The position numbers and the translations under genes were made by a program. Shown here in pieces: positions 24,050 to 50,996 of a stretch of 64,000 nucleotides of DNA. The stretch comes from Voacanga thouarsii (Eukaryota > Streptophyta > Magnoliopsida > Gentianales > Apocynaceae): contig JANUWF010001819.1 of assembly GCA_026120185.1 (NCBI GenBank), positions 1,860,001-1,924,000 on the forward strand. The letters are read 5' to 3'. Positions within the stretch are counted from its first letter, which is position 1. Every line of letters starts with the position of its first letter. The notes beneath the pieces are model-generated. The model searched no databases. It worked only from the letters and a program-made list of their open reading frames with translations, and was not told the origin of the DNA.

Positions 24050-24414
24050 TGTTATGAATATCTTAAAATTATTAGCTCCATTAATTAGTGGAGGCTCCAC
24101 TAATTATGGATTTATGTGAATTGTTAGAGAAGATTTTTATGGATGTCCACCATTTAGTGGAGACACCACTAATTAAGATTAGTGGAAGATGATGTATGCA
24201 ATAATGTATTCCACTAATTAGAACTCTATAAATAGAGTTATTCTCTAAACTTGTAATACACCATTATTTTGTGAAAGAAAGATTAGTGAAAGAAAGATTA
24301 GAGAAAATTGTGAGAGAAAAGAAAGAGAGAGAAATTCTTGTGCAAAGAATAGTTAGAATTTTATTAGTGTGTAGTGTGTAGATTTTATTCTAACACTACC
24401 CTAATTTTATAACA
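24050..24414 (+). repeat. 5' LTR of element C
   Basis: TGTTATGAATATC...TTTTATAACA, 365 bp, with TATA-like CTCTATAAATAGAG near 24225. It is longer than its 3' partner mainly because of a duplicated GATTAGTGAAAGAAA unit near 24280. Confidence 0.95.
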
Positions 24415-24531
24415 CGTTATCAGCACGAGACTCTACCGAAGTACTAAAGGTTATAATCACAGTGATACTATTGAAGTGTTCTTGAACAAAAGAGGAAGGT
24501 AAATACTTTTTCTATTTGATTTTGTATCCAC

Positions 24532-25125
24532 ATGGCAAATCTTACCAAACTCGAGTTCGCAGCTCTTGATATTACTGGGAAAAACTATTTATCTTGGATA
24601 CTAGATGCTGAAATGCATTTAGCTGCAATGGGTCTGGAAGATACCATTATAGAAAGAAATCTATCGTCATCATCTTCATGATGACTTAAAGGTTGAATAC
24701 CTTACTGTGAAAAATCCACTTATTTTGTGGACTAATTTGAAAGAAAGGTTCGATCACCAGAAGATGGTCGTCCTTCCAAAGGCACGGTATGACTGGATGC
24801 ATTTGCGATTACAAGATTTTAAATCTGTTAGTGAGTAAAATTCTGCTATTTTTAAAATTAGCTCGCAGCTAAAACAGTGTGGAGAAAATATTACTGATGA
24901 GGATATGTTAGAAAAAACTCTTCTACTTTTCATGCCTCGAATGTGCTCCTGCAGCAGCAATATCGAGAAAAGGGATTCAAGAAATATGCAGAATTGATAT
25001 CTTGTCTTCTCGTAGCTGAGCAAAATAATGAGTTAGTAATGAAAAATCATGAAACTCGACCAACAGGTTCTACTCCATTCCCGAAAGTAAATGATGTTAG
25101 AACTCATAATTTTGGCCCTAGAAGA

Positions 25126-25157
<32 letters not shown>

Positions 25158-25581
25158 ATATGGCCGTGGTTGTGGACATATATATAGTCGTAATAAAAAT
25201 ATTCATTATGATCGCAACAGTCAAAATAAAGTTACGAGAAATAATGACAACCACCAGAAGTGGCCAAAAACTAACGTGAAAAGAAAAGGAAATGATGTTC
25301 CTAAAAATTATGAAGATAAATGTTATCGCTGTGGCATAAAAGGTCATTGGTCTCGTACCTGTCGTACTGCAAAACACCTTGTTGATCTGTATCAGGCGTC
25401 TATTGAGAAGAAAGGCAAAAATGTTGAAACAAATTTTACTCTACAACAATCTCTTCATGATAATAATGATATCAACCTTGACGATGTTGATGTAACTCAT
25501 TTAGACGTGGCTGATTTCTTTGAGCATCCTGAAGGAAAAATTGAGTATTTGATTGGTGATGGAAGTGTTCAAAATAATTAA
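24532..25581 (+). pseudogene. gag of element C, broken
   Basis: ATG at 24532 starts MANLTKLEFAALDITGKNYL, the copia gag N-terminus. Near 24650 about 45 bases expected from element E are missing and the frame is lost. A TAA near 24836 is a second break, and further frame disruption precedes 24943. The open part 24943-25581 has an RGRGRGRGRG tract and the zinc knuckle CYRCGIKGHWSRTC (CX2CX4HX4C), which is intact. The protein would package element RNA in the virus-like particle. No full-length product is possible. Confidence 0.9.
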
Positions 25582-27344
25582 AAGTTTACTTTTAATATGT
25601 TTCTTTTATATTTTATATTTTTGGCATTGTAATAGCACTTATCGTTTAAAGTTTTTATTGTTTGAGTATTTACATTTATAAATGTTTTGTTATGCCCGAG
25701 ATGGCTATTATTCCAGCTTACTTGGATACACAAATGGCATTGAAGATATATGCCTAATTGATAGTGGTACAACACACACCATATTGAAAGATAAAAAATA
25801 TTTCTCTTACCTGCAGATGGGAGAAACAAATGTTAATACTATAGGTGGTAGTGTAAAGTTGATTGAAGGCTCTGGAAGAGCTAATATTGTATTACCCGGA
25901 GGAACAAATGTTGTTATTCCTAAAGCGTTATTTTCTTCAAAATCTCGAAGAAATTTATTAAGCTTTAAAGATATTCGCTGAAATGGATATCACATTGAAA
26001 CAATGGAAGAAAATAGTTTTGAGTATCTCTGTATTACTCAAATAATGTCGGAGTAAGAAATCTTTATTAGAAAAGCTACCATCTCTTTCTTCGGCCTATA
26101 TAGCACAAAAATCCATGCAATTGAAATGCATCATTCAGTAAATCAGAAGTTTACTGATCCTGTTACATTTATCATTTGGCATGACCGTTTGGGTCATCCA
26201 GGAGCTATTATGATGCGAAGAATAATTGAAAATACGCATGGTCATCCTTTGAAAAGTCAAAGGATTTTGACATCTGATAAATTTTCATGTGTTGCATGTT
26301 CTCAAGGGAAATTGATTATTAAACCATCTCCAACAAAAGTGGAGTTTGAGTCTCCAGTATTTTTAGAAAGAATTCATGGTGATATATGTGGACCAATTAA
26401 TCCACCATGTGGGCAATTCAGATACTTTATGATTTTAATTGATGCATCGACCCGATGGTCGCATGTTAGTTTATTATCAACTCGCAACCTGGCGTTCGCG
26501 AGATTGCTTGCCCAAATAATTCGCTTAAGAGCGCAATTTCCAGATTATCCGATCAAAAGGATCCGTCTAGATAATGCTGGAGAATATTCCTCCCAAGCTT
26601 TTGATGCTTATTGCCTATCAATTGGCATTACTATTGAACATCCAGTAGCTCATGTTCATACTCAGAATGGTCTAGCTGAATCATTCATTAAACGGTTACA
26701 ATTAATTGCTAGACCGTTATTAATGAGAACAAATCTCCCGACAACTGCTTGGGGACATGCTATTTTGCATGTTGCAGCACTTGTACGCCTAAGACCAACA
26801 AGTTATCACAAATTTTCTCCCTTACAATTGGCTTTTGGTTCCAAGCCAAATATAGCTCATTTAAGAAATTTTAGGTGTGCTGTATATGTTCCAATTGCAC
26901 CAAACTAACGTACAAAGATGGGTCCTCAAAGAAGAAATGAGATCTACGTTGGATATGATTCTCCTTCTATTATCATGTATGTTGAACCCCTGACAGAAGA
27001 TGTATTCACAGCAAGATTTGCTGATTGTCATTTTGATGAATCATTATTCACTAAATTAGGGGGAGAACCAAAACAGCATACACTACTGGAAAATGGCCGA
27101 TCACCCACGGCAAATTCCGTGGCTGAGATCCCACGGCAAATTGATCTCAGCCACGGAATAGCCACGGAAATTTTTTCGTGGCTGATTAATCAGCCACGAA
27201 ATATTCCCTGGCTAATCACCCACGGAAATAATAAATAATAATTATTGAAAATTCGTGGTCCACAACCCACTTCGTGGACCAAGCACACTTGATTGTAACC
27301 TTCAAATTAATTGAAGAATGTTTTGAATCATTTGAGAGTTGAAC

Positions 27345-27412
27345 CCATGACCTCCCATATGAGAAGTTGAGACTTAACCAATTGGGTTATGTCCAGTTGC
27401 TTGGACATGTCT
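27345..27412 (-). other. tRNA-like, possibly SINE-derived, segment inside the CACTA element
   Basis: On the minus strand AACCCAATTGGTTAAG resembles a polymerase III A box (TAGCTCAGTTGG-like). GGTCATGGGTTCAACTC, about 25 bases further, resembles a B box. Spacing suits a tRNA-derived SINE head. I see no poly-A tail or target duplication. Confidence 0.35.
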
Positions 27413-27616
27413 CTTTTTTTTTTCCATTTAAACCATTCCTAACATTCATTTTATAATTTTTTTAAAATCTTTATACTATTACAAAATACAACAATTATAT
27501 TCAATTTACTATGAAACCATATTATTCAATATAATAAATTATTTTGTATATTTATATAATTAAAAGTTTATATACTGTTAATTATTTTATCATTTTTATC
27601 AAATAATTTTTTCAAA

Positions 27617-27629
27617 TACATACATACAC

Positions 27630-27714
<85 letters not shown>

Positions 27715-27723
27715 GCATGTATG

Positions 27724-27757
<34 letters not shown>

Positions 27758-27850
27758 TGTATGTATGTATGTATGTATGTATGTATGTATGTATGTATGT
27801 ATGTATGTATGTATGTATGTATGTATGTATATATGCATATGTATATATAT
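27617..27850. repeat. Compound microsatellite (CA)n (TA)n (TATG)n
   Basis: CA repeats to about 27660, TA repeats to about 27708, then more than 100 bases of TATG repeat to about 27830, followed by AT-rich TATTTATA sequence to 28090. Open frames here are repeat artefacts. Confidence 0.95.
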
Positions 27851-30800
27851 AATATATTTATTTATATAGATAAATATTTATAAATATTTATCTATATATC
27901 TATATTTATAAATATTTTTAAAAATATATAAAATAAATATGAATTTTTATTTATATATAAATATTTATTTATATATATATTTAAAAATATTTATATTTAT
28001 ATTTATATATATAATATTTTTTATGTATTTATATATAAATAGTTATATGTAAATAAATATTAATTTATATATAAATATTTTTAAATATTTATTTATAAAT
28101 ATATATTGATCAAAGATTTTCGTGGCTGATTCGTAGGAGATCAACCACGAAAAAAATCCGTAACTGATCAGCCACGAAAAATTTTTAAAAAATTGATTAT
28201 ATATTGATAAAAGATTTTCGTGAATCAGCCACGAAAATCTTTTATCAATATATAATTAATATTTGATAAAAGCTTTTCGTGGCTGATTCGTGGGTGAATC
28301 AGCCACAGATATTTTCGTGACTGATCACCTACAAATCAACCACAAAAAAATTTAAAAAAATTAGTTATATATTGATAAAAGATTTTCGTGGCTGATTCGT
28401 AACTAATCAGCCACGAAAATATCCGTGGCTGATTCGTGTCTGATTTACCCACGAATCAACCACGACATTTTTTATCAAATATTGATTATATTGAAAAAAT
28501 ATTTTCGTGGCTGATTCGTGGCTGAATCAGCCACGAATCAGTCACGAACTACGAGTCAGCCACGAAAATCTTTTATCAATATATAATCAATTTTTTTAAA
28601 ATTTTTGTGGCTGATCCGTGGGTGATCTCCTACGCCAGTTTTCGTGGCTGATTTTCGTGGCTGATTGCCTAGTTTCTAGTAGTGATAAAAAGGATCTTAC
28701 TTGGACAACATCATTAAATTATCTTGATCCGCGCACAAGCACATGTGAACTTGAAGTTCAAAAGATAATTCATTTGCAAAGCATTGCAAATCAAATGCCA
28801 GACACTTTTGTTGACTCCAGAAGAGTTACAAAATCGCATATTCTAGCTATAAATGCTCCTATTCGAATTGAAGTTCCAACAGAAACAAAATATTATACCT
28901 ATAGTCACTGAGTCAAAAACACGCCGTAAGCGTGGCCGACCTCTTGGTTCTAAAGATAAAAATCCTCGAAAGAAAAGAGAATTAAATGATCCGGAAGATC
29001 ATATTGAAGAAAAGAATGATAAAGACCAAGAGAAAACCGATGACAAAGAACCGTGAAGTTGATGAAAGTAACACTCGAAATTTCTATCAATTATACCACT
29101 TCCGGTAGAAGTTGGAATCAGATAGAAACTGTTATTGATAATATATTTGCATACAATATATCTCTTGATGTTACACAGGATAATGATGATCCTGAACAAT
29201 ATCAGTTGATGAATGTCGGCATAGAAAAGATTAGCTGCAATGGAAAGATGCGATTTAATCGGAGTTAAATGCACTGACAAAACGTGAAGTCTTCGGACCT
29301 GCAGTCCGAACTCCAGAAGGTGTAAAACCTGTTGGCTACAAATGGATATTTGTGCGAAAACGCAATGAAAAGAGTGAAATCGTTCGATATAAAGCACGAT
29401 TAGTAGCCCAAGGTTTTTCACAAAGACCAGGTATTGATTATGATGAAACTTATTCTTCTGTTGTTGATACTATTACACTCCGATATCTTATCAATTTGGC
29501 AGTACATGAAAAGATAAATATGTGCTTATTAGATGTTGTCACTGCTTACTTGTATGGAAATTTAGAAAATAATGTTTACATGAAAATCTCCGAAGGATTT
29601 CATATGCCTGAAGCATATAAACATTATCCTCGTGAAAATTACTCCATCAAGTTGCAGAAATCATTATATGGCCTGAAGCAATTTGGGCGCATGTGGTTCA
29701 CACGTCTTAGTAAATATTTATTGAAAGTGGGATTTAAAAATGACCAGGTATGTCCATGTATTTTTATTAAGAAATTTGGTTCTAAATTTGTGATATTAGC
29801 TATATATGTTGATGATATTAATCTTATTGGAACTCCTGAAGAGCTCCAAGAAACAATTGATTATTTAAAAAGAGAATTCGAAATCAAGGATTTTGGTAAA
29901 ACCAAATTTTGCCTTGGTTTACAAATTGAACATCTGGAAAGTGGAACATTTATTCATCAATCAACATATACAGCAAAAGTGTTAAAAAGATTTTACATGG
30001 ATAAAGCACATCCATTGAGTATTCCAATGATCGTCCGATCATTAAATGTGGATAAAGATCCTTTCCGACCTCAAGAAAATGATGAAGAACTTATTGGTCA
30101 TGAAGTACCATATCTCAGTGCAATTGGTGCATTGATGTATCTTGCTAATAATACACGACCTGATATTGATTTTGCTGTCAATTTATTAGCAAGATTTAGT
30201 TCTTCACCAACACGACGACATTGGAATGGAATTAAACAAGTCATTTGATATCTCCAAGGTACAATTGATCTCGGATTATTTTATTCAAATAAAACCAGCC
30301 CAACATTGATTGGTTATGCAGATGCTGATTATTTATCTGATCCACATAAAACACGTTCTCAAACGGGCTATCTATTTACATGTGGAAATACTGCTATATC
30401 ATGGCGTTCTACGAAACAATCTATAGCAGCTACTTCTTCAAATCATACTGAAATAGCCATTCATGAAGCAAGTCGAGAATGTGTATGACTAAGATCCATG
30501 ATTCATTATATTCGAGAAAGTTGTGGATTATCATCGATCAAAGATAGTCCAACTCCTCTTTATGAAGACAATGCAGCTTGCATAACTCAATTACGAGGAG
30601 GATATATTAAAGGAGATCGGACAAAACATATTTCACCAAAATTCTTCTTTACTCATGAACTCCAGAAGAAATGTGAAATTGATGTGCTACAAATTCAATC
30701 ATGTGACAACCTCGCAGATATTTTCACGAAAACTTTACCAACTGCAACATTTGAGAAGTTGAAATATAAAATCGGTATGCGTCGGTTTAAAGATTTAAAG

Positions 30801-30949
30801 GAATTAGCTCATCAGGGGGAGTAATAAACAGACATATAGAATAGTGTACTCTTTTTCCCTTACTAGATTTTTTTTCCCACTGAGTTTTTATCTAGTAAGC
30901 TTTTAACGAGGTATATTCTTTATGTAATGGATGGACATCCAAGTGGGAG

Positions 30950-31299
30950 TGTTATGAATATCTTAAAATTATTAGCTCCATTAATTAGTGGAGGCTCCAC
31001 TAATTATGGATTTATGTGAATTATTAGAGAAGATTTTTATGGATATCCACCATTTAGTGGAGACACCACTAATTAAGATTAGTGGAAGATGATGTATGCC
31101 ATGATATATTCCACTAATTAGAGCTATATAAATAGAGTTATTCTCTAAGCTTGTAATACACCATTATTTTGTAAAAAAAAGATTAGAGAAAATTGTGAGA
31201 GAAAAGAAAGAGAGAGAAATTCTTGTACAAAGAATAGTTAGAATTTTATTAGTGTGTAGTGTGTAGATTTTATTCTAACACTACCTTAATTTTATAACA
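30950..31299 (+). repeat. 3' LTR of element C
   Basis: 350 bp, same termini as the 5' LTR, ending TTTATAACA directly before the TTCAG target duplication. Confidence 0.95.
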
Positions 31300-31933: not shown

Positions 31934-31938
31934 TTTTT

Positions 31939-32305
31939 TGTTATAAAATTAGGGTAGTGTTAGAATAAAATCTACACACTACACACTAAGAAAATTCTAA
32001 CTATTCTTTGCACAAGAATTTCTCTTCAAACTTCTCTCTTTCTTTCTCTCACAATTCTTTCTCCAATCTTTCTTTCACTAATCTTTCTTTCACAAAATGA
32101 TGGTGTATTACAAGCTTAGAGAATAGCTCTATTTATAGAGCTCTAATTAGTGAAATACATCATGTCATACATCATCTTCAACTAATCTCAATTAATGATG
32201 TCTCCACTAAATGGTGGACATCCATAAAAATCTTCTAATAATTCACATAAATCCATAATTAGTGGAGCCTCCACTAATTAATGGAGATTCCAATAATTCA
32301 TAACA
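31939..32305 (-). repeat. 3' LTR of element D
   Basis: Plus-strand view TGTTATAAAATTAG...ATTCATAACA. It adjoins the polypurine tract (GGGGGAG on the minus strand) at 32306-32312. Confidence 0.95.
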
Positions 32306-32429
32306 CTCCCCCTTGGATGTCCATCCATACATAAAGAATATGCCTCGTTAAAACCTTACTAGATAAAAACCCAAGTGGGAAAAAAATCTAGTGAAGGAAA
32401 AAGAGTACACTATTCTATATGTCCATTTA

Positions 32430-34617
32430 TTACTCCCCCGATGAGATGATTCCTTTAAATCTTTAAACCGACGCATACCGATTTTATATCTCAACTTTTC
32501 AAATGTTGCCAGTCGGTAAAGTCTTCGTGAAAATATCTCGCGAGGTTGTCACATGACCGAATTTGTAGCACATCAATTTCACATTTCTTCCGGAGTTCAT
32601 GAGTAAAGAAGAATTTTGGTGAAATATGTTTTGTCCGATCTCCTTTAATATATCCTCCTCGTAATTGAGCTATGCAAGCCGCATTGTCTTCATAAAGAGG
32701 AGTTGGAATACCTTTGATTGATGATAATCCACAACTTTCTCGGATATAATGAATCATGGATCTTAGCCATACACATTCTCGACTTGCTTCATGAATGGCT
32801 ATAATTTCAAGCATGATTTGAAGAAGTAGTCGCTATAGATTGTTTCGTAGAACGCCATGATATAGCAAGTATTTCCACATGTAAATAGATAGCCCGTTTG
32901 AGAACGTGCTTTATGTGGATCGATAAATAACCAAAGATCTCGCATAACCTATCAATGTTGGACTGGTTTTATTTGAATAAAATAATCCGAGATCAATTGT
33001 ACCTTGGAGATATCGAAGGACTTGTTTAATTCCATTCCAATGTCGTCGTGTTGGTGAAGAACTAAATCTTGCTAATAAATTGACAAATAAAGCAATATCA
33101 GGCCGTGTGTTATTAGCAAGATACATCAATGCACCAATTGCACCGAGATATGGTACTTCAGGACCAAGGAGTTCTTCATCATTTTCTTGAGGTCTGAAAG
33201 GATCTTTATCCACATTTAATGATCGGACGATCATTGGAATACTCAATGGATATGCTTTGTCCATGTAAAATCTTTTAGCACTTTTGTCGTATATGTTGAT
33301 TGATGAATAAATGTTCCACTCTCCAAATGTTCAATTTGTAAACCAAGGCAAAATTTGGTTTTACCAAAATCCTTGATTTCGAATTCTCTTTTTAAATAAT
33401 CAATTGTTTCTTGGAGCTCTTCAGAGTTCCAATAAGATTAACATCATCAACATATATAGCTAATATCACAAATTTAGAACCAGATTTCTTAATAAAAACG
33501 CATGGACATACCTGGTCATTTTTAAATCCCGCTTTCAATAAATATTCACTAAGACGTGTGAACCACATGCGCCTGATTGCTTCAGGCCATATAATGATTT
33601 CTGCAACTTGATGGAGTAATTTTCACGAGGATAATGTTTATATGCTTCGTGCATATGAAATCCTTCGGGATTTTCATGTAAACATCATTTTCTAAATTTC
33701 CATACAAGTAAGCAAGTGACAACATCTAATAGGCGCATATCTATCTTTTCATGTACTCGCCAAACCGATAAGATATCTGAGTGTAATAGCATCAACAACA
33801 GGAGAATAAGTTTCATCATAATCAATACCTGGTCTTTGTGAAAAACCTTGGGCTACTAATCGCGTTTTATATCGAACGATTTCACTCTTTTCATTGCGCT
33901 TTCGCACAAATATCCATTTGTAGCCAACAGGTTTTATACCTTCCGGTGTTCGGACCGCAGTCCGAAGACTTCACGTTTTGCCGGTGCATTTAACTCCGAT
34001 TGAATCGCATCTTTCCATTGCAGACCAATCTTTTCTATGCCGACATTCATCAATCGATATTGTTCAGGATCATCATTATCCTGTGTAACATCAAGAGATA
34101 TATTGTATGCAAATATATTATCAATAACAGCTTTCTATCCGATTCCAACTTCTACCTAAGTGGTATAATTGATAGAAATTTCAAGTGTTACTTTTATCAA
34201 CTTCCGGTTCTTTGTCATCAGTCCTCTCTTGGTCTTTATCATTCTTTTCTTCAATATGATCTTCTCGGATCATTTAATCCTCTTTTCTTTCGAGGATTTT
34301 TATCTTTAGAACCAAGAGGTCGGCCACGCTTCGGCATGCTTTTGGCTCAGCAGACTATAGGTATAATATTTTGTTCTCACTGGAACTTCAATTCGAATAG
34401 GAGCATTTATAGTCGGCATATGCGATTTTGTTACTCTTCTAGAGTCAACAAAAGCGTCTGGCATTTGATTTGCAATGCTTTACAAATGAATTATCTTTTG
34501 AACTTCAAGTTCACATGTGCTTGTATGCGGATCAAGATAATTTAATGATGTTGTCCAATCACGATCTTTCTTGTACTGTTTCTGTTCTCCCCTTAATTTA
34601 GGGAATAATGATTTCAT
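32430..34617 (-). pseudogene. Reverse transcriptase and RNase H remnant of element D
   Basis: Minus-strand translation gives the integrase tail (SLFPKLRGEQKQ near 34600), then reverse transcriptase motifs (RYKTRLVAQGFSQ, LKREFEIKDFGK, MIVRSLNVDKDPF), then RNase H (YEDNAACIAQLRGG, GDRTKHISPKFFF). The pieces lie in different frames, with breaks near 33270, 33420, 33650, 33750, 34200 and 32900. In the RNase H end a frameshift lies near 32520. No working enzyme is possible. It stops abruptly at about 34617, where host-derived sequence begins. Confidence 0.9.
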
Positions 34618-34784
34618 AAGAGAATAAGAAAATAAATATAAGAAAATGATGACAAGCAGAAATGTCAAGAAAAATATCTATTTTTTTTTCACTCTTCCTG
34701 CATCGACTTTTCCTCTTCCTCTCTTGTCTTTTCTTCTCCTCCAACCCTCTATCTACCATCTACCTCTTCTTCTTCCTCATACAG

Positions 34785-34816
<32 letters not shown>

Positions 34817-34877
34817 CGATATATATCTCAGTTATCAGTCATTAGTAAACATCAAAAACAAAAATCACAAAGCAGAT

Positions 34878-36053
34878 ATGGAGACTCGTAATTCATTTGA
34901 GACATGGTCAAATTTTGACTCGATTTCTGCAGCAGATGTTGATGTATTTTTCTTTCCAAACCAACCGCTTCTGCCTAATTCAAACACAGAAGATTTTGAT
35001 ATGTTTTCCTTTCCAAACCAACTGCTTCTGCCTAATTCGAACGCAGAAGATTGTGATATGTTTTCCTTTTCAAATCAACCGCTTCTGCCTAATTTCAGGT
35101 GAGATACCTTTGATGGCTTCCATTTGTTTTTAGTGTGCTTGATAATGAAATTAAACTCTCTTTTGGTTTGTTTTTTATGTAAATCAGTGGAAGTTTTGAA
35201 CATACCGCTTTGGACCAAGTTGATCTCGCCTCTACAAGAGACTCGCTTTTGATACTGTTCTTCTTGATGCTATTCCTTTGAATGAGGATATGCTTGTGCA
35301 TGATCCTTTCTACTCTCTAATGGATTTTGAACAAAGCCATAATATGTTTCCAGGTTATTATACATTTAAACATGGATTTTGAATGGTATTACCTTTATCG
35401 ATATTATTTTCTTTTTCTAGGAGAAATAATGAGTGGTCTTGGCAACGAAGTCGGAGTAAGTACTCATGAAATGCATAATATCGAAGTTCAAGATATTATT
35501 GCAGACAAAATTCCCGGGGAGAAGAAGATGATTAAGAGGCAGAGAGAGAAGAAGGGCAATAACTCCCGGACACTATCAAGAGAAACAATTTCGCAAGTAC
35601 TTTTACCTACCAATCAAAAGCGCAGCCAAAGAACTCGAATATTGGCATAACCCGTCTCAAGAAAAGATGTAGGGAGTTAGGAATTCGTCGATAGCCTCAC
35701 AGAAATTGGTGAGCTTGGAGACCATAATCAAGAATGTTCGAGTTCTCTCTCATACATACTTATAATTTGCAAGTATGAAACTATGAAAGATTTATAAATA
35801 AATAACCGATGATATCACTTCGATTTACAGGATATGCAAAATAAAGAAGAAGGAGGACATATGGTCGAGAAGAAATTACAAGAAGCCATTGCGATACTCG
35901 GAATGTGAAAAACAGTTGGTGGAAGAAAGTCCTAATACGCAGTTAGAGGACCAAACACAGAAATTGAGACAAGCATGCTTCAAGGCCAAATATAATAAGA
36001 AATATAATAAACTTAAGGAGATCATAAAATCTCAAGACTCATTTCGCAGATAA
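34878..36053 (+). pseudogene. RKD: RKD (RWP-RK domain) transcription factor gene, intron-containing, inside a retrotransposon
   Basis: RKD proteins are plant-specific nuclear DNA-binding factors linked to egg-cell identity and embryogenesis. Proposed exons: 34878-35098, 35188-35353, 35421-35741 and 35831-36053, with GT-AG introns between them. Exon 1 starts METRNSFETWSNFD and has three repeats of an N-Q-P-L-L-P-N-containing unit. Exon 3 holds the RWP-RK domain: LSRETISQ, then in other frames YFYLPIKSAAKEL, GITRLKKRCRELGIRR and PHR. Exon 4 has KLQEAIAIL and LEDQTQKLRQACFKAKYNKK, the conserved C-terminal segment. Damage: a frame shift in exon 2 near 35250, several single-base indels and a TAG in place of the domain Trp in exon 3, and one extra base in exon 4 near 35908. 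Plant RKDs are about 250-300 residues, so the copy is nearly complete in extent. It is antisense to the host element. Confidence 0.87.
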
Positions 36054-36309
36054 TTTTACTGCTAATTCTGCTACTAGTCTCGATGCTCGGCTCAAAGGGG
36101 AAAGAAAAGGAGGAGGATGTCGAAAAAGAGGAGTCGAAATCCATAATTACTAATTGTTTGTCATCCTCTAATGTAAATATTGAAAAAGAACAATTACAAA
36201 CCTTCATCTTACATTTGTCAGCTCAATTACAAAAGAGCAACTATATGCATGTATCATCAAGTTCATATGAACACTATTGGTATGAATAAAAGATGTGATG
36301 TTTATTATT

Positions 36310-36870
36310 AATGGAAATATCTTTTTCCCTTATTATCTTTTCTGTTCCACTTCAGGTGGCCAGTATTTCTCTGTGATAAGGGAAATATCGAGTGTGTCCA
36401 TAACCATAACCACGGCCACTCGCCACAACTACGACTATAACGATGGCTTCACTGGAGCCAACGACATTCACTTCGGAGTGCTTGTTGAGCCGCTTCACCT
36501 GGCTTCATGATTTCTCAATAATAACTCATGTTAAAGCTGTCAATTTTGGATACCCTTTTTCTCGATATTGTTACTATAGAACATGAAAAGTGGAGAATGT
36601 CTTCTCCAATATAACTTCATCAGTAACTTTTTCTCCGTAAAATTTTTAACTAAGATGTAGTTTTATACATCACGGAGTTCACGGTTTTACAATCTTGCAA
36701 CTTCAGGTGCAACCATTCATACCATGCAATGGGTAGTACGACCATCTTCGAGTGGTCAAATCTTTCTTTTTATCCACATGACATATGGATCTCCTTTTTT
36801 TAGCATTTAGATGCATTTTTGTATGACATATAATTTTTTTTTCAGAAATATCAATGGCTACAAATTCGAA
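36310..36870 (-). pseudogene. gag remnant of element D
   Basis: On the minus strand the ATG near 36857 starts the MAT(N) gag N-terminus as in C and E. Then follow LKMVVLPIAWYEWLHLKLQD-like sequence near 36730 and NTGHLKWNRKDNKGK near 36340. The zinc knuckle seen at this point in C and E is missing; similarity ends near 36310 at the join with the RKD-bearing block. A deletion and frame changes break the N-terminal part too. Confidence 0.8.
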
Positions 36871-36896
36871 TTTAGCGAGATCAATAAATGCGTACC

Positions 36897-36966
36897 TGTC
36901 TTCTGGCTTTAATAACGGCAGAGACTCGTGCTGTCTTCTGGCTTTAATAACGGCAGAGACTCGTGC
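36897..36966. repeat. 35-bp perfect tandem duplication in the element D leader
   Basis: TGTCTTCTGGCTTTAATAAC... is repeated exactly at 36897 and 36932, ending with the primer site sequence. Element E has a diverged version of the same duplication at about 38800-38865, so it predates both. Confidence 0.9.
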
Positions 36967-36974
36967 CGATAACG

Positions 36975-37341
36975 TGTTATAAAATTAGGGTAGTGTTAGA
37001 ATAAAATCTACACACTACACACTAAGAAAATTCTAACTATTCTTTGCACAAGAATTTCTCTTCAAACTTCTCTCTTTCTTTCTCTCACAATTCTTTCTCC
37101 AATCTTTCTTTCACTAATCTTTCTTTCACAAAATGATGGTGTATTACAAGCTTAGAGAATAGCTCTATTTATAGAGCTCTAATTAGTGAAATACATCATG
37201 GCATACATCATCTTCAACTAATCTCAATTAATGATGTCTCCACTAAATGGTGGACATCCATAAAAATCTTCTAATAATTCACATAAATCCATAATTAGTG
37301 GAGCCTCCACTAATTAATGGAGATTCCAATAATTCATAACA
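36975..37341 (-). repeat. 5' LTR of element D
   Basis: Same length and termini as the 3' LTR, and next to the primer-binding site at 36960-36974. Confidence 0.95.
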
Positions 37342-37346
37342 TTTTT

Positions 37347-38540: not shown

Positions 38541-38787
38541 TGTTGTAAATATGTTGAATTAGTGGAAGCTCCACTAATTCTTAATTAGTGGAAGATGATG
38601 TATTTTACTAATTAAGAATTTTATAAATAAAGTTATTTTTTAAACTTGAAATACACCATCATTTTGTGAAAGAATTGTGAGAACAGAAAGAGAGAAGTTT
38701 GAAGAAATTCTTGTGTAAAAAATACTTAGAATTTTCTTAATGTGTAGTGTGTAGATTTTATTCTAACACTACCCAAATTTTATAACA
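38541..38787 (+). repeat. 5' LTR of element E, internally deleted
   Basis: 247 bp, beginning TGTTGTAAATATG and ending TTATAACA. About 110 bases present in the 3' LTR are missing after AAGCTCCACTAATT, between short repeats of the motif CCACTAATT/TTAATTAGTGG. Confidence 0.93.
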
Positions 38788-38889
38788 CGTTATCAGCACG
38801 AGTCTCTACCATTACAAAAGCCAGAAGACTAAAGCACGAGTTTCTACCGTTACAAAAGTCAGAAGATAGGTACACATTTATTGATTCCT

Positions 38890-39943
38890 ATGGCTAACCT
38901 GACTAAACTCGAATTTGTAATCCTTGATATTACTGGAAAAAATTATATGTCATGAGTTCTCGATGCAGAAATGTATCTAAATACTGAAGGTCTTAGTGAA
39001 ACTATTCAAGAAAACAATAGTGCATCTGCACGACAAAAGGCCAAAGTTTTGATTTTTATCCGTCGTCATATTGACGAAAATTTGAAAATAGAATATCTTA
39101 CCAAAAAAGATCCATATGTCCTGTGGGTAAATTTAAAAGAAAGATTTGACTACTTGAAGATGGTCGTACTACCCACTGCATGGTATGAATGGTTGCACAT
39201 GAGGTTGTAAGATTTTAAAATCGTGAATGAATATAGCTCCGCGATGTATAAAATTACTTCTCAATTAAAATTATGCGGAAAAAAAGTTACTGATGAAGAT
39301 ATATTGGAGAAAACATTCTCCACCTTTCATGCCTCAAATATTATCCTGCAGCAACAATATCGCGAAAAAGAGTATACAAAATTTACAATTTAATTATTGC
39401 CCTCCTCATTATAGAGAAAAATAATGAGTTATTATTGAGAAATTATGAAGCTAGACCAACTGACCCAACAGCACTCCCAGAAATGAATGTTGTTGGCTCC
39501 AGTAGAAACCATCGTTATAATCGTAGCCGTGGTCGTGCTTATGATTGTAAACACGCTCGATATTTCCCTTATCATAGTCATAATCAAGTTGTGAAAAATA
39601 CTGGCCACTTAAAGTGGAACAAAAAAGATCATAAAGGAAAAGAAAAAGAAAAAGAAATGGAAGAAAAGTATAAGGATACATGTTATAGATGTGGCATGAA
39701 AGGTCACTGGTTACGTAACTATCGTACGGCCAAGCATTTAGTGGAGTTATTCACTGAAAATGAATAATAAAAATATTAAAGCAAATTTTTTTTAACATCC
39801 AGTGAATGATGCTGAGGATGATAATATTGATCCTAAAAATCTTAATATCAATATTACCCATATGGATGTATTGGATTTTTGTAAACACCCAAACGGTAGG
39901 ATAGACCATTTAATTGATGATGACAGTGTCCAGAAAAATTAAT
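38890..39943 (+). pseudogene. gag of element E, broken
   Basis: ATG at 38890 starts MANLTKLEFVILDITGKNYM, followed at once by TGA where C has a Trp codon (TGG to TGA). Another stop (TAA for CAA) precedes the DFK segment near 39210, and the frame is lost near 39390. The zinc knuckle reads CYRCGMKGHWLRNY: the fourth ligand is Tyr instead of Cys, so zinc binding would fail. Confidence 0.9.
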
Positions 39944-39960
39944 GCCTCACCCTGATATGT

Positions 39961-42900
39961 TTGACTTTTCATTATATTCTAATAATATTTACGTTTGCAT
40001 ATATATATTTTTTTGTTCAAATGGTTGTTATTAATGATGATGTATGTATTATTAATAATGGAATTACACACACCATACTCAAAAATGAGAAATATTTTTC
40101 TTATCTCAAAATTGGAAAAATAAATATTTATACAATAAACAGTAGTACAAAGGTGATTGAAAGCTCCAAAAGAGCTAGTATATTGTTGCATGAAGGAACA
40201 ATAATTACTATTGATAAGGCATTATTTTTCTCAAAATTCAGAAGAAATTTATTGAGTTTTAAATATATCCGTAGAAATGGGTATCATGTTGAAACAAATG
40301 AGAAAAATAGTATTGAACATTTTTATATTACTCAAATTAATTTGGGTAATAAATCTGTATTAGAAAAATTGCCGTCTTTTTCTACTGGCTTATATTTTAC
40401 AAAAATACGTACAATTGAAATTCATCATCTCGTAAATCAGAAGTTTACTGATTCTACTACTTTTAGCATTTGTCATGACCGGTTGGGTCATTCAGGATTT
40501 ACCATGATGAAAAGAATAATTGAAAATACACATAGTTATCCTATCCAGATAGTAGGATATACCATTTAATTGGTGATGACAGTATCCAGAAAAATCTGTA
40601 TTAGAAAAACTGTCGTCTTTTTCTACTGGCCTATATTTTACAAAAATACGTACAATTGAAATTCATCATCTCGTAAACCAGAAGTTTACTGATCCTACTA
40701 CTTTTAGCATTTGTCATGACCGGTTAGGTCATCTAAGTTTACCATGATGAGAAGAATAATTGAAAATACACATAGTCATCCATTGAAAAATAAAAAGATA
40801 TTGACATTTGAAAAATTCTCATGTGTTGCATGTTCCCTAGGAAAATTAATTGTTAGACCATCACCAGTAAAAGTAGGAGTTGAAAGTCCTACATTTCTTG
40901 AACGGATTCACGGAAACATTTGTGGACCTATTGATCCACCATGTAGACTGTTTAAAAATTTTATAGTCTTAATTGATGCATCATCGCAATGGTCATATGT
41001 GTATTTATTATCTACTCGCAACTTGACGTTTGCGAGATTATTTGCTCAAATAATTAAATTACGAGTACAATTTTCTGACCATCACATTAAAAATATCCGT
41101 TTGAATAATGTTGGTGAATTTTCATCACATGCTTTTGATGCAAATTACATGTCAATTGTGATTAATGTTGAATATCCTATAGCTCATGTTCATACACAAA
41201 ATGGTCTTACTGAATCTTTTATTAAAAGATTAGAATTAATTGTTAGACCATTATTAATGAAAACAAATCTCCCAACATCTGCCTGGAGACATGCTATTTT
41301 ACATGCTGCAGCACTTGTACATATAAGGCCAACTAGTTATCATAAATTCTCTCCTTTGCAATTGGCTTTTGGTTCAGAATCAAATATTACTCATTTAAGA
41401 ATTTTTTGGTGTACTGTATATGTTCCAATTGCACCAAACCAACGTACAAAGATGGGTCCTCAAAGAAGAAAGGGGATATACGTCGGATATGATTCTCCCT
41501 CTATTATCAGGTATATTGAACCCCTAACAGGAGAAGTATTCACAGCAAGATTTTCTGATTGTCATTTTGATGAATCATTATTCCCTAAATTAGGGGGAGA
41601 ACATAAACAGCATAAGAAAGATCTTGCTTGGACAACATCATTAAATTATCTTCATCCGTGAGCGCATGTGAACTTGAAGTTCAAAAGATAATTTGCAAAG
41701 TATTGCAAATCAAATGCCAGACGCTTTTGCTAACTCCAGAAGAGTTACAAAATTGCATATTCCAACTATAAATACTCCTATTCGAATCAAAGTTCCAGCA
41801 GAACAAAAGATTATACCTATACCTGCTGAGTCAAAAGCACTCCAGAGGCGTGGCCGACCTCTTGGTTCTAAAGATAAAAATCCTCAAAAGAAAAGAGGAT
41901 TAAATGATCCAAAAGATCACATTGAAGAAAAGAATGATAAAGACCAAAAGAAAACTGATGACAAAGAACCAAAAGTTGATGAAAGTAACACTGAAATTTC
42001 TATCAATTATATCACTTCCGGTAAAAATTGAAATAGGATAGAAACTGTTATTGATAATATATTTGCATACAATATATCTCTTGATGTTACACAGGATAAT
42101 GATGATCCTGAACCAATATCAGTTGATGAATGTCGGCATAGAAAAGATTGGCTGCAATAGAAAGATGCGATTCAATCGAAGTTAAATGCACTGACAAAAC
42201 GTGAAGTCTTCGGACCTGCAGTCCGAACACCAGAAGGTGTAAAACCTGTTGGCTACAAATGGATATTTGTGCGAAAACGTAATGAAAATAATGTAACCGT
42301 ACGCTATAAAGCACGGTTAGTAATCCAAGGTTTTTCACAAAGACCATGTATTGATTATGATGAAACTTATTCTCCTATTGTTGATGCTATTACACTCCGA
42401 TATTTTATCAGTTTGGCAGTACATGAAAATATAGATATGCGCCTATTAGATGTTGTCACTGCTTACTTGTATGAAAATTTAGAAAATGATGTTTATATGA
42501 AAATCCCCGAAGGATTTCATATGCCTGAAGTATATAAACATTATCCTCGTGAAAATTACTCCATCAAATTGCAAAAATCATTATATGGCCTAAAGCAATC
42601 TGGGCGCATGTGGTTTAATCGTCTTAGTGAATATTTATTGAAAGCGGGATTTAAAAATGACCAGGTATGTCCATGTATTTTTATTAAGAAATTTGGTTCT
42701 AAATTTGTGATATTAGCTATATATGTTGATAATATTAATCTTATTGGAACTCCTGAAGAGCTCCAAGAAACAGTTGATTATTTAAAAAGAGAATTCGAAA
42801 TCAAGGATTTTAGTAAAATCAAATTTTGCATTGGTTTACAAATTGAACATTTGGAAAGTGGAACATTTATTCATCAATCAACATATACAGCAAAAGTTCT

Positions 42901-43744
42901 AAAAAGATTTTACATAGACAAAGCACATCCATTGAGTATTTCAATGATCGTCCGGTCATTAGATGTGAATAAAGATCCTTTCCGACCTCAAAAAGATGAT
43001 CAAGAACTCCTTGGTCCTGAAGTACCATATCTCATTGCAATTGGGACATTGATATATCTTGCTAATAATACACGATCTGATACTACCTTTGCTGTCAATT
43101 TATTAGCAAGATTTAGTTCTTCACCAACACGACGACATTGGAATGGAATTAAATAAGTTCTTCGATATCTCCAAGGTACAATAGATCTCGGATTATTTTA
43201 TTCAAATAAAACCAGCACAACATTGATAGATTATGCAGATACTGGTTATTTATCTGATCCACATAAAGTACGTTCTCAAATGGACTATCTCTTTACATGT
43301 GAAAATATTGCTATATCATGACGTTCTACAAAACAATTTATAGCAGCTACTTCTTCAAATCATACTGAAATTATAGCCATTCATGAAGTAAGTCGAGAAT
43401 GTGTATGGTTAAGATCAATGATTCATTATATCTGAGATATTTGTGGATTATCATCTATCAGAGATATTCCAACTCTTCTTTATGAAGACAATGCAACTTG
43501 TACAGCTCAATTACGAGGAGGATATATTAAAGGAGATCGAACAAAACATATTTCACTAAAATTCTTCTTTACTCATAAACTCCAAAAGAAATGTAAAATT
43601 GATGTGCTACAAATTCGGTCATGTGACAACCTTGCAGATATTTTCATGAAGACCTTACTGACTGCAACATTTGAGAAGTTGAGATATAAAATTGGTATGC
43701 GTCAGTTCAAAGATTTAAAGGAATCGTCTCATCAGGGGGAGTAA
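39961..43744 (+). pseudogene. pol of element E with mutated catalytic sites
   Basis: The protease motif is INNGITHTIL where C has IDSGTTHTIL, so the catalytic Asp is Asn. The integrase has HGNICGPI and RLNNVGEFSS where C has HGDICGPI and RLDNAGEYSS, losing two catalytic Asp residues. The reverse transcriptase box is YVDN, not YVDD. A duplication near 40351-40782 and stops near 41660, 42030, 43154, 43320 and 43435 further break it. Domain order is otherwise normal, and the RNase H end matches C closely. Confidence 0.92.
40351..40782. repeat. About 190-bp duplication inside the element E integrase region
   Basis: AAATCTGTATTAGAAAAA starts both copies, at 40351 and 40592, and both run through the CATGACCGGTTRGGTCAT zinc-binding segment. 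The 48 bases between them (ACCATTTAATTGGTGATGAC...) resemble the end of gag at 39905-39943, so the rearrangement joined three pieces. Confidence 0.85.
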
Positions 43745-43869
43745 TAAACAGACATATAGAATAGTGTACTCTTTTTCCTTCACTAGATTTTTTTTTTCAC
43801 TGAGTTTTTATCTAGTAAGGTTTTAACGAGGCATATTCTTTATGTAATGGATGGACATTCAATGGGGAG

Positions 43870-44227
43870 TGTTGTAAATATGTTGAATTAGTGGAAGCTC
43901 CACTAATTATGGATTTATGTGAACTATTAGGGAATTAGTGGAAACTCCACTAATTAGTGGAAGTTTCACTAATTATGGATTTTTATGGATGTCCACCATT
44001 TAGTGGAGACACCACTAATTAAGATTAGTAGAAGATGATGTATTCCACTAATTAAGAACTCTATAAATAGAGTTATTCTCTAAACTTGAAATACATCATC
44101 ATTTTGTGAAAGAATTGTGAGAAAAGAAAGAGAGAAGTTTGAAGAAATGCTTGTACAAAAAATTGTTAGAGTTTTCTTAATGTGTAGTGTGTAGATTTTA
44201 TTTTAACACTATCCAAATTTTATAACA
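43870..44227 (+). repeat. 3' LTR of element E
   Basis: 358 bp with the same termini as the 5' LTR. It contains several alternating AATTAGTGGA / TCCACTAATT palindromic units near 43885-43975. Confidence 0.95.
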
Positions 44228-46618: not shown

Positions 46619-49600
46619 ATGGCAGAAGAAGCTACTCTGGTTCGCCCCGAGCAAAAACGCAAGATGCCACTCTCTGTATTCTTCAAAAATGTCAGGTACA
46701 TTTTTGGAATATATATGCTCATCTAATTATCTTTTGATGGTTCATGTTGAACCTACCTACTTAATACAAGAAAAATGAGAGCTCCACAAAGCCATCAGAT
46801 AGCTATGGCATGTCCGGTTCTTGAAAACAAATCAGGAAAATGTGAGTGAAAAAGCGTTCCCTAGTTGAAGGTATATAATGCATTTTTACCTGAAAATAAC
46901 TTTTCAGGCTTGTGTTCAAATTGGATGATCTGGGCCTGGAGATATTGCGTATTGCATTTCCCGCAGCCCTGGCATTAGCTGCAGATCCTATTGCATCTTT
47001 GATTGATACGGCATTTATTGGACATCTAGGTATATTTTGTACTCAGTTTGAGCTGGTCTAACGCAAATTTTGCATCTTTAAGATATATTTTTGTTGATGC
47101 ATCACTGCATATATTTATAGTTTTGCTTGCAGACTCAAATATAAGATGCCTTTTTTGTTCCAATGGAGAAGAGTCTTTTCTTCAAATATACCACATGGGT
47201 TTCTTATTTCAATGTTTCGATTTTGTACAGGTCCAGTAGAAATTGCAGCTGTTGGGGTTTCAATTTCTATATTCAATCAAGTATCCAAGGTTGCCATATT
47301 CCCGCTGGTCAATATCACTACTTCGTTTGTTGCTGAAGAAGATACAATCAAAAGATTAACTCGGGCATCCCAAAAATGTGATGACATAGAGAAAGGTTCT
47401 GTCAAGAAAAATGAAGCGGCAGAAGATGCTAACCTCGAAAAATAGATGGTTCAAACAAAGAAAGTGAAGGAATGGATTTTGAGCAAGAAGATGGTATGCA
47501 ATCCTAAATCCATCAGCGATAAATATCTAATGAGCTCAGAAAGATACTTTGTTCGAGTTTGACGAAATGAACTATAACGGCAGATCAAATTATAATTATC
47601 TTTTCCTTCATTTAGGTTTCAGGACTAAGACGTGCAAGTCTCCAACTGTCATGAGCAGCAGCACTCAGGAGGGGAGCACACTGAAACACGAAAGACAACA
47701 CATTCCTTCAGCATCAACTTCGCTGGTTGTGGGCAGTGTGCTTGGCCTTCTCCAAACAATATTCCTCATATTTCTGGCAAAACCAATTCTTGGATTCACG
47801 GGAGTGAAATCTGTGAGTCGATCTTGAAACTTGCCAATTTCTATTTGGTAGTGCATATCAATATGAAGTCTAACTCGAATCAACCTCACTCCTTTCCTAG
47901 CTGTTTAGGTTCCATGGTGCCATGTCCTTTATCACTGGTCCATTTAGCATAATTTGCCAATATTCCCAATCCCGGTTTTTTGGCCGTTTGAATCAAACAA
48001 CTTATCATGTGCACTTGAACATGGATGAGTTTAACTTTTATACTCTTTGGAGAAGATGCATTTATGCCGCATTGTTCACGAGACAAAGTAAAGTTAGAGA
48101 AAAACCTGATGAATAGTACTCTGATTAAGGTACATTTCATTGAAGAGCCGAATAAATGAAAAGAAGGCATATAGTTTTCCAACCAAATTTCCGATCCTTA
48201 ACACTCAGAGGGCCAGATTTCACATTCTGCTACCTTGATCCCTTGTTCTGCTCCTTTTTGAGGATCAAATGCATTAAAGATTAATTTCACTTCAAGATCT
48301 TCCTGTCTTTTGAAAGCTACCTGTCATCTTTAAACCTGATGCATAACAGGGGAACTGCAGCTTATATTGTCCAACTCTGCTTGCCTTTGTTTCTGTCCAG
48401 CATTTCATCTCAGTGCTGTTAATCAATAGATGCACAAATAATTCGCCAATATTAGCCTTAATTGTAGTTTTGGTTTTGGATCAAATAGGGATCGTCAATG
48501 CTAGTCCCAGCAAGGAAGTATCTGACAGTAAGAGCACTTGGCTCTCCTGCAGTGGCTCTTTCTCTGGCCATGCAAGGGGTTTTTCGAGGTATGAAGGATA
48601 CCAAGACTCCTTTGTATGCCACTGGTAATGCTACTTCCTTGTCTTAGTTTTCCCTTTCTGGTTTCTATCGTTTCTATCACTCCGATTCTGTTCCGTCTAG
48701 TGCTGAATGCAATATCTTCCAAGTTTCCTTCTAAAGATGATCCAACACATTGGAAAGAACTTGTAATTTTTCATTATAGTTCCCATACGAATTTAAAGAA
48801 AAGAAAAAAAAAACATTACAACTTATTCGACCAAAATTTTCTTCTGAATCCATTTCATTTATTTCTTCAAACAGTTATAGGAGATACAGCAAATATAATT
48901 CTGGACCCCATTTTCATATTTGCATGCCATTTGGGAGTCAGTGGTGCAGCCATTGCTCTTGTTCTTTCTCAGTAAGCTATCCTAGATTGCTTATGCATTT
49001 AACAGTACAGTTCGGAGTACTTCTTTCAACTTCTAATACATTCATATTGTGCTGTCCTCATGTGGTTTTCACTCACTTGACTAATTGTCTTACAGGTACT
49101 TGATTTCCATAATTCTCTTGTGCAAACTAATGAGACAAGTTGACCTGTTACCTCCAAGTACTAAACATATGCAGTTTTGTAAATTTCTCAGGAGTGGTAG
49201 GTATCAATTCTGCACATTACATAACCCACACGGTCCAGTTTACAAATTACATGGGCCAATATTGGGACATTAAGACCTTACTGACATAGAGATCTTGAAA
49301 TGAATTTCTTATGAGGAATCATTGTGAAGCCGGGCTTTTAAAGGATTGAATCCTTGAAAAGCGGTATCAATCATGAGCAACTAACTAGCAGGCTCAGATT
49401 AAAGAGTAGAGTGTGCTATCAAGTGTCTTCTTTCGTTTTCCATTTATCAATTAAATAGTGAAGGATTCAAGTTGATGAGACAATTGAATACATTGCTTGG
49501 GCACTTAACTGCAGGTTTTCTCATATTAGCAAGAGTACTAGCTGCAACAATCTGTGTTACTCTGGCTACATCAGTGGCTGCAAGGCTTGGTTCTACCCCA

Positions 49601-50996
49601 ATGGCAGCATTTCAAATTTGCTTACAGGTCTGGCTGACATCTTCACTTCTAGCGGATGGTTTGGCTGTTGCTGGACAGGTAAGTGATGTCCTAATTATGT
49701 ATAATCTGACCTAAACATGCAGTTTTCAATTTCATTCTTCATACAATATGCATTCCTAAGCAGTGTTTGTACCCCAAAAATGATTAATCATCTGCCCTTC
49801 AGGCCATTCTCGCTTGTGCCTTTGTTGAGAAAGACTATGAGAAGACAACAGCAGCTGCAAGCCGAGTACTGCAGGTAAAATTAAGAATGGTTCTTATTTC
49901 ACTTGTGCTGGGAACCTCACTTGTTCTGATCTATCCACTATATTGTTTATCAAACCAATATAAGCTTGTCATGAATAATAGGCAACGTTCCAAACCAATT
50001 GCCAATCTGATCAAACTTAGCCTTCAAGAAATGGAAATCAGCAACTATTCATGAATATTGACTGAAAACCATTTTGTAGTACATAAATATCGCATGAAAA
50101 CTTGATGAAATTCAAACTATTATCACATCTTTTTTTCCATTCTGTCACTACAAGTAATAACAACCTTGTTTTTGCAAGAATTTTGAGAAGTTCTAATTTG
50201 CTCCACAGATGGGATTCGTACTTGGACTTGGACTAGCTCTTATTGTTAGAGTTGGTTTACAATTTGGTTCTGGAATCTTTTCTAGGGACAAGAACGTTCT
50301 TCACATTGTTAGCATAGGCATCCCAGTAAGACCATATGATTACAGAATGTTCTCTCATAGTTTTTGGGTTCTTCAATTCATCCTCTGAAGATTTCCATCT
50401 GTTCTGCTATCAGTTTGTTGCAGGAACACAACCTATCAACTCATTAGCCTTCGTCTTCAATGGTATTAATTATGGATCATTTGATTTTGCATATTCTGCT
50501 TACTCCATGGTTAGTTTACAACCTCTCACAGAAAAATGAGCAGAAATTTTTGCACATTCTTGCTGTCATATTCATGAAATTCCCCTCTATACAGGTTGTG
50601 GTGGCAATATTAAGCATTGGATGCTTATTTGCTCTCTCTAAGTTTTATGGCTTTATTGGAATATGGATTGCTTTAACCATATATATGGCCTTGCGCACAT
50701 TGGCTGGAATCTGGAGGTAATTCATTTTTTCATCTTAGATTTAACTTCCATGCACTAAAGGTGTTGAAAACATCTCTTTTACACGTGCGATTCAATTGGT
50801 GTTCTTTGTAGAAAAATAATTTTACAAGTTTAAAAGTAATTACTCGGTATCAATCTAGATATGCTTGTGAAATAACCGAATTGCTGGGAACCAAACGTAT
50901 CTTCTGCTACTTGGTGACAAACTTTTTGTTGCATTTTGCAGGGTGGGAACAGGCACAGGACCTTGGAGGTATCTAAGGGGAAGATCATTATCTTAG
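46619..50996 (+). CDS. DTX42: MATE efflux transporter, DETOXIFICATION 42 type (citrate exporter family), with one frameshift
   Basis: The family exports citrate across the plasma membrane, in aluminium tolerance or iron movement. Exons: 46619-46695, 46908-47029, 47231-47493, 47616-47812, 48489-48624, 48875-48971, 49096-49196, 49515-49678, 49803-49874, 50209-50325, 50414-50509, 50595-50716, 50942-50996. All junctions are GT-AG and phases agree. The start gives MAEEATLVRPEQKRKMPLSV. Family segments are PAALALAADPIASLIDTAF, VSKVAIFPLVNITTSFVAEE, SLAMQGVFRGMKDTKTPLY, RLGSTPMAAFQICLQVWL, VAGTQPINSLAFVF and the ending VGTGTGPWRYLRGRSLS. Summed exon length is 1619 bases, one short of a whole frame: in exon 3, five A at 47438-47442 lead to TAG at 47443. 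One more A would keep the frame and give about 539 residues, normal for the family. The indel is in the variable cytosolic loop, so it is either a recent null mutation or an assembly error. Confidence 0.88.

Follow-up and report, generated by a model that had tools for sequence, protein, structure and literature searches.

An intron-bearing RKD gene in antisense orientation within a young Copia-type element of plant DNA

Elements in the window

The window, i.e., the whole 64-kb stretch of plant DNA analysed here, contains three related Copia-type elements (A, D and B), each flanked by a 5-bp repeat. The element under study, D, is a non-autonomous LTR element, and an RKD gene read in the opposite direction takes the place of part of its gag and pol. 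RKD genes are known as controllers of egg cells and embryos. The features are listed in Table 1.

Table 1. Elements, coding remnants and RKD gene parts with their coordinates in the window
Feature	Position	Strand	Remarks
Element A, related Copia copy, used as a comparator	24050..31299	+	TTCAG on both sides
Left target-site duplication of D, TTTTT	31934..31938	.	
Element D, non-autonomous Copia-type LTR element	31939..37341	-	LTR pair, flanking TTTTT, RVT_2 piece
3' LTR of D, 367 bp	31939..32305	-	99.73% identity to the 5' LTR
Pol remnant of D: end of the integrase region, RT, RNase H	32306..34615	-	
RKD insert, antisense to D	34616..36322	+	occupies the place of B 39642-41549; ends +/- ~20 bp
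RKD exon 1, ATG at 34878	34878..35098	+	
RKD exon 2, one frame change within 35215-35262	35188..35353	+	
RKD exon 3, RWP-RK domain, three frame changes and TAG	35421..35741	+	
RKD exon 4 and acidic tail, two frame changes; 3' end uncertain	35831..~36180	+	
AATAAA, polyadenylation-like signal	36285..36290	+	
Gag remnant and leader of D, zinc knuckle absent	36323..36974	-	comparison with B
5' LTR of D, 367 bp	36975..37341	-	high-coordinate end of the element
Right target-site duplication of D, TTTTT	37342..37346	.	
Element B, related Copia copy, zinc-knuckle and integrase C-terminal regions present	38541..44227	+	TAAAA on both sides

The earlier note on this DNA described D as having paired, almost identical LTRs with TTTTT flanks, and this is what we find: the two LTRs align with a single mismatch and no gap, the element has TG...CA ends, and TTTTT adjoins both of them. 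Two random 5-mers drawn from the two flanks would match with a chance of 0.0022, a value weakened as evidence by the T-richness of the flanks. Considering that A and B are also flanked by 5-bp repeats, five base pairs appear to be the duplication size typical of this Copia family. The LTR pair of A differs by 12 substitutions in 352 aligned bases, and that of B by 24 in a 228-base piece; D is thus by far the youngest of the three. Stretches resembling a primer-binding site and a purine-rich tract were recognised in D by eye. A perfect 35-bp tandem duplication (36896-36966) lies just inside the 5' LTR and adjoins the primer-binding stretch.

The arrangement proposed in the same note, with gag at one end and RT-RNase H at the other, is also borne out. 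A 69-aa open piece of D matches RVT_2 in Pfam (E 6.3e-19), which marks a Copia-type RT; the ORF of A matches the same family at E 9.8e-60, and the open stretches of the RNase H and of the RT end of D are 91% and 89% identical in amino acids to the ORFs of A. By blastn, homology to B extends in pieces over D 31934-34633 and 36323-37315, with none in the insert, and outside the insert the two elements are collinear. The stretch of B that is missing from D (39642-41549, 1,908 bp) contains a zinc knuckle at 39678-39716 (PF00098, E 0.0069, short of the curated threshold), together with the greater part of an SH3_retrovirus domain, the C-terminal part of integrase, at 41368-41586 (PF25597, E 5.5e-14). 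The protease and the integrase core were not reported by Pfam and are placed in this stretch by order alone. Accordingly, the claim that an opposite-strand RWP-RK gene replaces the zinc knuckle, protease and integrase agrees with the loss of 1.9 kb relative to B, the protease and integrase core being assigned by position.

The RKD insert

The insert comprises a gene with its flanks, namely, about 260 bp upstream of the ATG, four exons, three introns and the AATAAA signal. The introns (35099-35187, 35354-35420 and 35742-35830) all start with GT and finish with AG, the donor of the third (GTTCTC) appearing weak by eye. Since introns and both upstream and downstream sequence are present, the insert is a gene with some flanking DNA and no spliced copy; spliced mRNA as its source is ruled out by the introns.

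Its assignment to RKD is well supported. At E <= 0.001 it is matched by 214 proteins, the best at 9.2e-44 (50% identity over 64% of the query), and the informatively named ones among the 120 listed of these 214 are eudicot RKD or RWP-RK proteins. The RWP-RK domain is found by Pfam (PF02042, E 2.2e-13) on the stretch read with X at the breaks. Alignment with eight RKD proteins, together with tblastn using the best 120 of the 214 matches, places the regions that accompany this domain: N-terminal AFD..PL..DP, C-terminal LRQACFKA and the acidic tail. The claim of an antisense RKD gene with three GT-AG introns therefore stands. In a tree with the 120 listed proteins the copy has an overlong end branch (1.65) and no supported neighbour, and the RWP-RK stretch has no PDB match at E <= 1. 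In exon 1, a 57-bp tandem repeat of 2.9 copies occupies 34930-35094, its unit being a multiple of three.

On the RT side, the blastn alignment of D with B reaches 34633, and homology is clear by MAFFT only to about 34615. In a comparison limited to shared and inverted words, none longer than 6 bp was found between the borders 34591-34660 and 36281-36345. The insert of about 1.7 kb has no other copy in the window by blastn except TA repeats, and no second RKD insert was found there by the same search.

These borders bear on the proposal that a DNA transposon brought the RKD gene into the Copia element. Pack-MULE, CACTA and Helitron-type elements carry genes with introns, and a CACTA-like element is indeed present nearby, in element A (27081-28684). 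However, inverted ends and direct repeats longer than 6 bp are lacking at the insert borders, and a simple insertion leaves the loss of 1.9 kb of Copia sequence unexplained. We consider this origin very improbable.

Small indels and the RKD reading frame

As assembled, the RKD exons contain six frame changes (within 35215-35262, at about 35592, 35635, 35702 and 35899, and within 36025-36100), two of which were given by the automatic listing from ungapped tblastn and the remainder read by eye. In addition, an in-frame TAG at 35692-35694 stands where all eight aligned RKD proteins have the Trp of RRWPHR (the RWPHRK motif). The copy is thus no open reading frame, and the description of a nearly whole RKD gene holds for its span, which is near-complete and retains the introns, but not for its product, as no intact protein is encoded in the assembled sequence. 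It is unlikely that this copy yields a functional RKD protein.

If the frame changes are real, the age of the insertion matters. If one assumes 0.1 indel for every substitution and a coding length of 850 bases, the LTR clock gives p 3e-9 for at least six coding indels in RKD since insertion (6e-5 at the 95% upper rate), so that real frame changes would be older than the insertion. This speaks for the reading in which D contains a dead pseudogene within a decayed element, nearly all lesions having preceded the last transposition; the number of lesions, six frame changes and a stop, is in its favour as well. The pol remnant of D points in another direction.

In the three-way alignment of the pol regions of A, B and D (2,094 ungapped columns), 20 indels are found only in D; 18 of them are of 1 bp and 19 shift the frame, while the frameshifting indels specific to A and B number two and six. 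Within 32441-34560, 15 of the 19 D-only indels of 1-2 bp touch CAG, CTG, CCG or CGG of the unmutated copy. Such CHG motifs make up 14% of positions, which gives p about 4e-10, and the result is the same with A or B as the reference. Among the controls, 0/2 of the A-only and 1/3 of the B-only indels are at CHG sites. Of the ten single-base insertions in pol, six create CAAG or CTCG (on either strand).

An unpolarised comparison of 1-bp indels covered ten repeat pairs. At CHG are 17/18 such indels between D and A and 18/21 between D and B in pol. The A-B control in pol gives 3/4 (p 0.02), so the signature is not wholly specific to D; the integrase region of A and B gives 1/2 and its inner part again 1/2, the internal duplication of B 0/1, a repeat at 52 kb 0/1, and two further repeats 0/0. 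The gag remnant of D is devoid of the signature (1/3 small indels between D and B, or 1/4 by a slightly different count). The LTR of D, one copy being counted, includes no CAG, CTG, CCG or CGG and, therefore, could not show it.

The substitutions were considered as well. In D, C>T changes affect 9/77 CHG, 2/87 CG and 8/456 CHH sites (Fisher p 0.025 and 0.0002), and C>A adds one, three and one, respectively; the C>T pattern differs from plain deamination. The largest class of D-only substitutions is A>G/T>C, with 31 at 1,312 AT sites. As the columns are unpolarised, some of the changes counted as D-only may belong to the A-B branch instead. Among the codon changes in pol, nonsense accounts for 0/38 in D, 2/32 in A and 3/83 in B. 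Non-synonymous changes make up 55% in D versus 71% under neutrality (p 0.026), i.e., there is slight constraint, which suggests that the lineage of D had a working pol until recently.

Deamination makes no indels and would favour CG too. For this reason, we take the CHG signature to reflect likely errors of basecalling where cytosines in CHG are methylated. The frame changes in pol and RKD of D are then likely to be mostly basecalling errors at methylated CHG, and D would be a densely silenced element, not a decayed one. According to a general statement in PMC9749173, in which CHG is not named, plant methylation is likely to lower nanopore accuracy. An outright statement of CHG indel error was not found in the literature searched, where the printed support is general only. 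This explanation has its own difficulty: methylation is expected in A and B as well, and an effect on D alone needs the extra assumption that D is too repetitive to polish or is densely CHG-methylated.

For RKD itself, where the unmutated state is not anchored by a parent gene, the signature is suggestive only. Four frame changes have a narrow placement; three of them are on CAAG or CTCG and one is at CAG, and both broad intervals likewise contain words of the CAAG/CTCG type. The chance of at least three of four falling on such words is 0.0075 with 10-base windows and 0.08 to 0.12 with windows of 21-25 bases. This modest result leaves some room for the pseudogene. However, pol indels at CHG far above the 14% background are unlike neutral decay, and neutral decay would also be expected to produce something other than 18 of 20 D-only indels of a single base and no nonsense among 38 codon changes. 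We consider it rather unlikely, though to be taken seriously, that the RKD frame changes are real. The basecalling explanation that fits them does not extend to the TAG in the RWP-RK domain, which may be a real lesion. The RKD lesions had also been tried as dating proof that the capture long predates the last transposition; this was dropped, considering that the pol indels sit at CHG motifs. Lesions that are perhaps not real are unusable as a clock.

Likely basecalling errors in this stretch could indicate a region of low quality, and one may ask whether the assembly has simply fused a Copia element with an RKD locus. Such a chimera needs two breakpoints within one LTR pair whose flanks match, and we find it hardly credible.

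A more general caution follows: one-base indels at CAG, CTG or CCG in methylated plant DNA can mimic an old pseudogene and spoil its dating. The clustering of single-base indels at CHG over 32441-36100 is also a possible readout of methylation from the assembly alone.

Probable capture and movement of the gene

D is a young Copia-type element whose middle is replaced by an antisense, intron-bearing RKD gene. We believe that this gene was probably captured as genomic DNA and then retrotransposed in trans, and that the frame changes are mostly basecalling errors at CHG. In the first step, unspliced genomic RKD DNA would have been taken into a copy of a Copia element, replacing the interval that starts at the gag zinc knuckle and stops shortly before the end of integrase. 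The gene could have been incorporated directly as genomic DNA, or reverse transcriptase could have jumped to an RNA transcribed antisense from the genomic locus; we favour the DNA-level route. In the element RNA the introns would be reversed and, presumably, not spliced, and in this way they would survive copying. The proposal that antisense placement keeps the introns fits the locus: a host-type gene with introns does lie antisense in a young Copia element, and the orientation would explain their survival. As the integrase region is missing from D, the enzymes would have been supplied in trans for one or more rounds of retrotransposition.

That D moved with RKD inside is suggested by the young LTR pair, the matching flanks and the orderly chimera, one copy being present in the window. 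The same single copy of the junctions is compatible with a different order of events, in which RKD entered D after integration through break repair with a loss of 1.9 kb and filler DNA, and the element never moved with the gene; the slight constraint on pol, pointing to a recently working pol, would suit this order. Against it, one difference in 367 LTR bases leaves little time, and the exchange is confined to the interior, with both LTRs, the leader and the RT still collinear with B. Later entry thus seems unlikely to us, and we retain capture followed by transposition.

Relation to known systems and possible consequences

Capture of host genes by plant LTR elements is known. PMC7264820 cites maize Bs1 and 672 captured genes in rice and 1,343 in sorghum, and states that transduced sequences are usually in the gag-pol sense. 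PMC2773423 counts gene fragments in 20 LTR elements across a 22-Mb region of maize, and in PMC3726574 many passengers of rice LTR elements are described as pseudogenes. Element D resembles these cases in having host gene sequence inside an LTR element, but differs from what PMC7264820 presents as usual in that its near-complete gene with three introns is antisense and in the middle of pol. As a case of gene capture, an almost entire regulator with introns, set in pol in reverse orientation, is an unusual variant.

The additional ORFs of Grande, RIRE2, Retand and PvRetro13 are also coding-like regions antisense to gag-pol. As outlined in PMC7264820, these occupy the region between pol and the 3' LTR, and no gene resembling them is known outside the elements, unlike the insert in D, which has a clear source gene family and replaces part of pol. 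Abnormal template switching in Veju and BARE-2, described in PMC13317346, likewise yields chimeras with foreign sequence between element parts. That route starts from packaged RNA, however; for a gene with introns in antisense, it would require either antisense transcription of genomic sequence or else capture as DNA. RKD genes are also associated with mobile elements in citrus (CitRKD1, with a MITE inserted upstream) and in mango polyembryony; there the element is reported to lie upstream of a live RKD gene, whereas in D the gene is inside the element. In the open-access literature searched (titles and the starts of abstracts), we did not find an RKD gene carried by an LTR element, which does not mean that none has been published.

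Given the orientation, any transcript from the 5' LTR of D is antisense to the RKD exons, and such a transcript might give rise to small RNAs that target a parent RKD gene. It is tempting to go further and propose that D belongs to a small, recently amplified RKD-Copia family, founded by the intact antisense capture of an entire RKD gene with introns, in which LTR-driven antisense and small RNA from many methylated copies tunes the parent RKD gene; we hold this to be quite doubtful. If true, it would be a natural counterpart of the CitRKD1 antisense experiment, and the CHG error signature would mark copies too alike for short-read polishing. Clonal embryo formation in citrus is already decided by an RKD gene. 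A near-complete unspliced regulator carried by a mobile element would demonstrate how genes with introns can be moved by way of an RNA stage.

Other features of the window

The CACTA-like element within A runs from CACTACTGGA to TAGTG with ATA on both sides, and inverted repeats of the CACGAA type are seen by eye near its right end. Element B has an internal direct duplication (40351-40541 and 40592-40781, 94% identical). An open frame at 1329-1880 looks by eye like the RNase H end of a further Copia element. A host gene for a MATE transporter of the DETOXIFICATION 43 type occupies 46900-50720 on the plus strand in several exons; its best match is from Catharanthus roseus (73%), with a further entry at 72% and Cinchona at 71%, matches that suggest a lamiid asterid, perhaps of the Gentianales. 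The RT search brought up no closer species.
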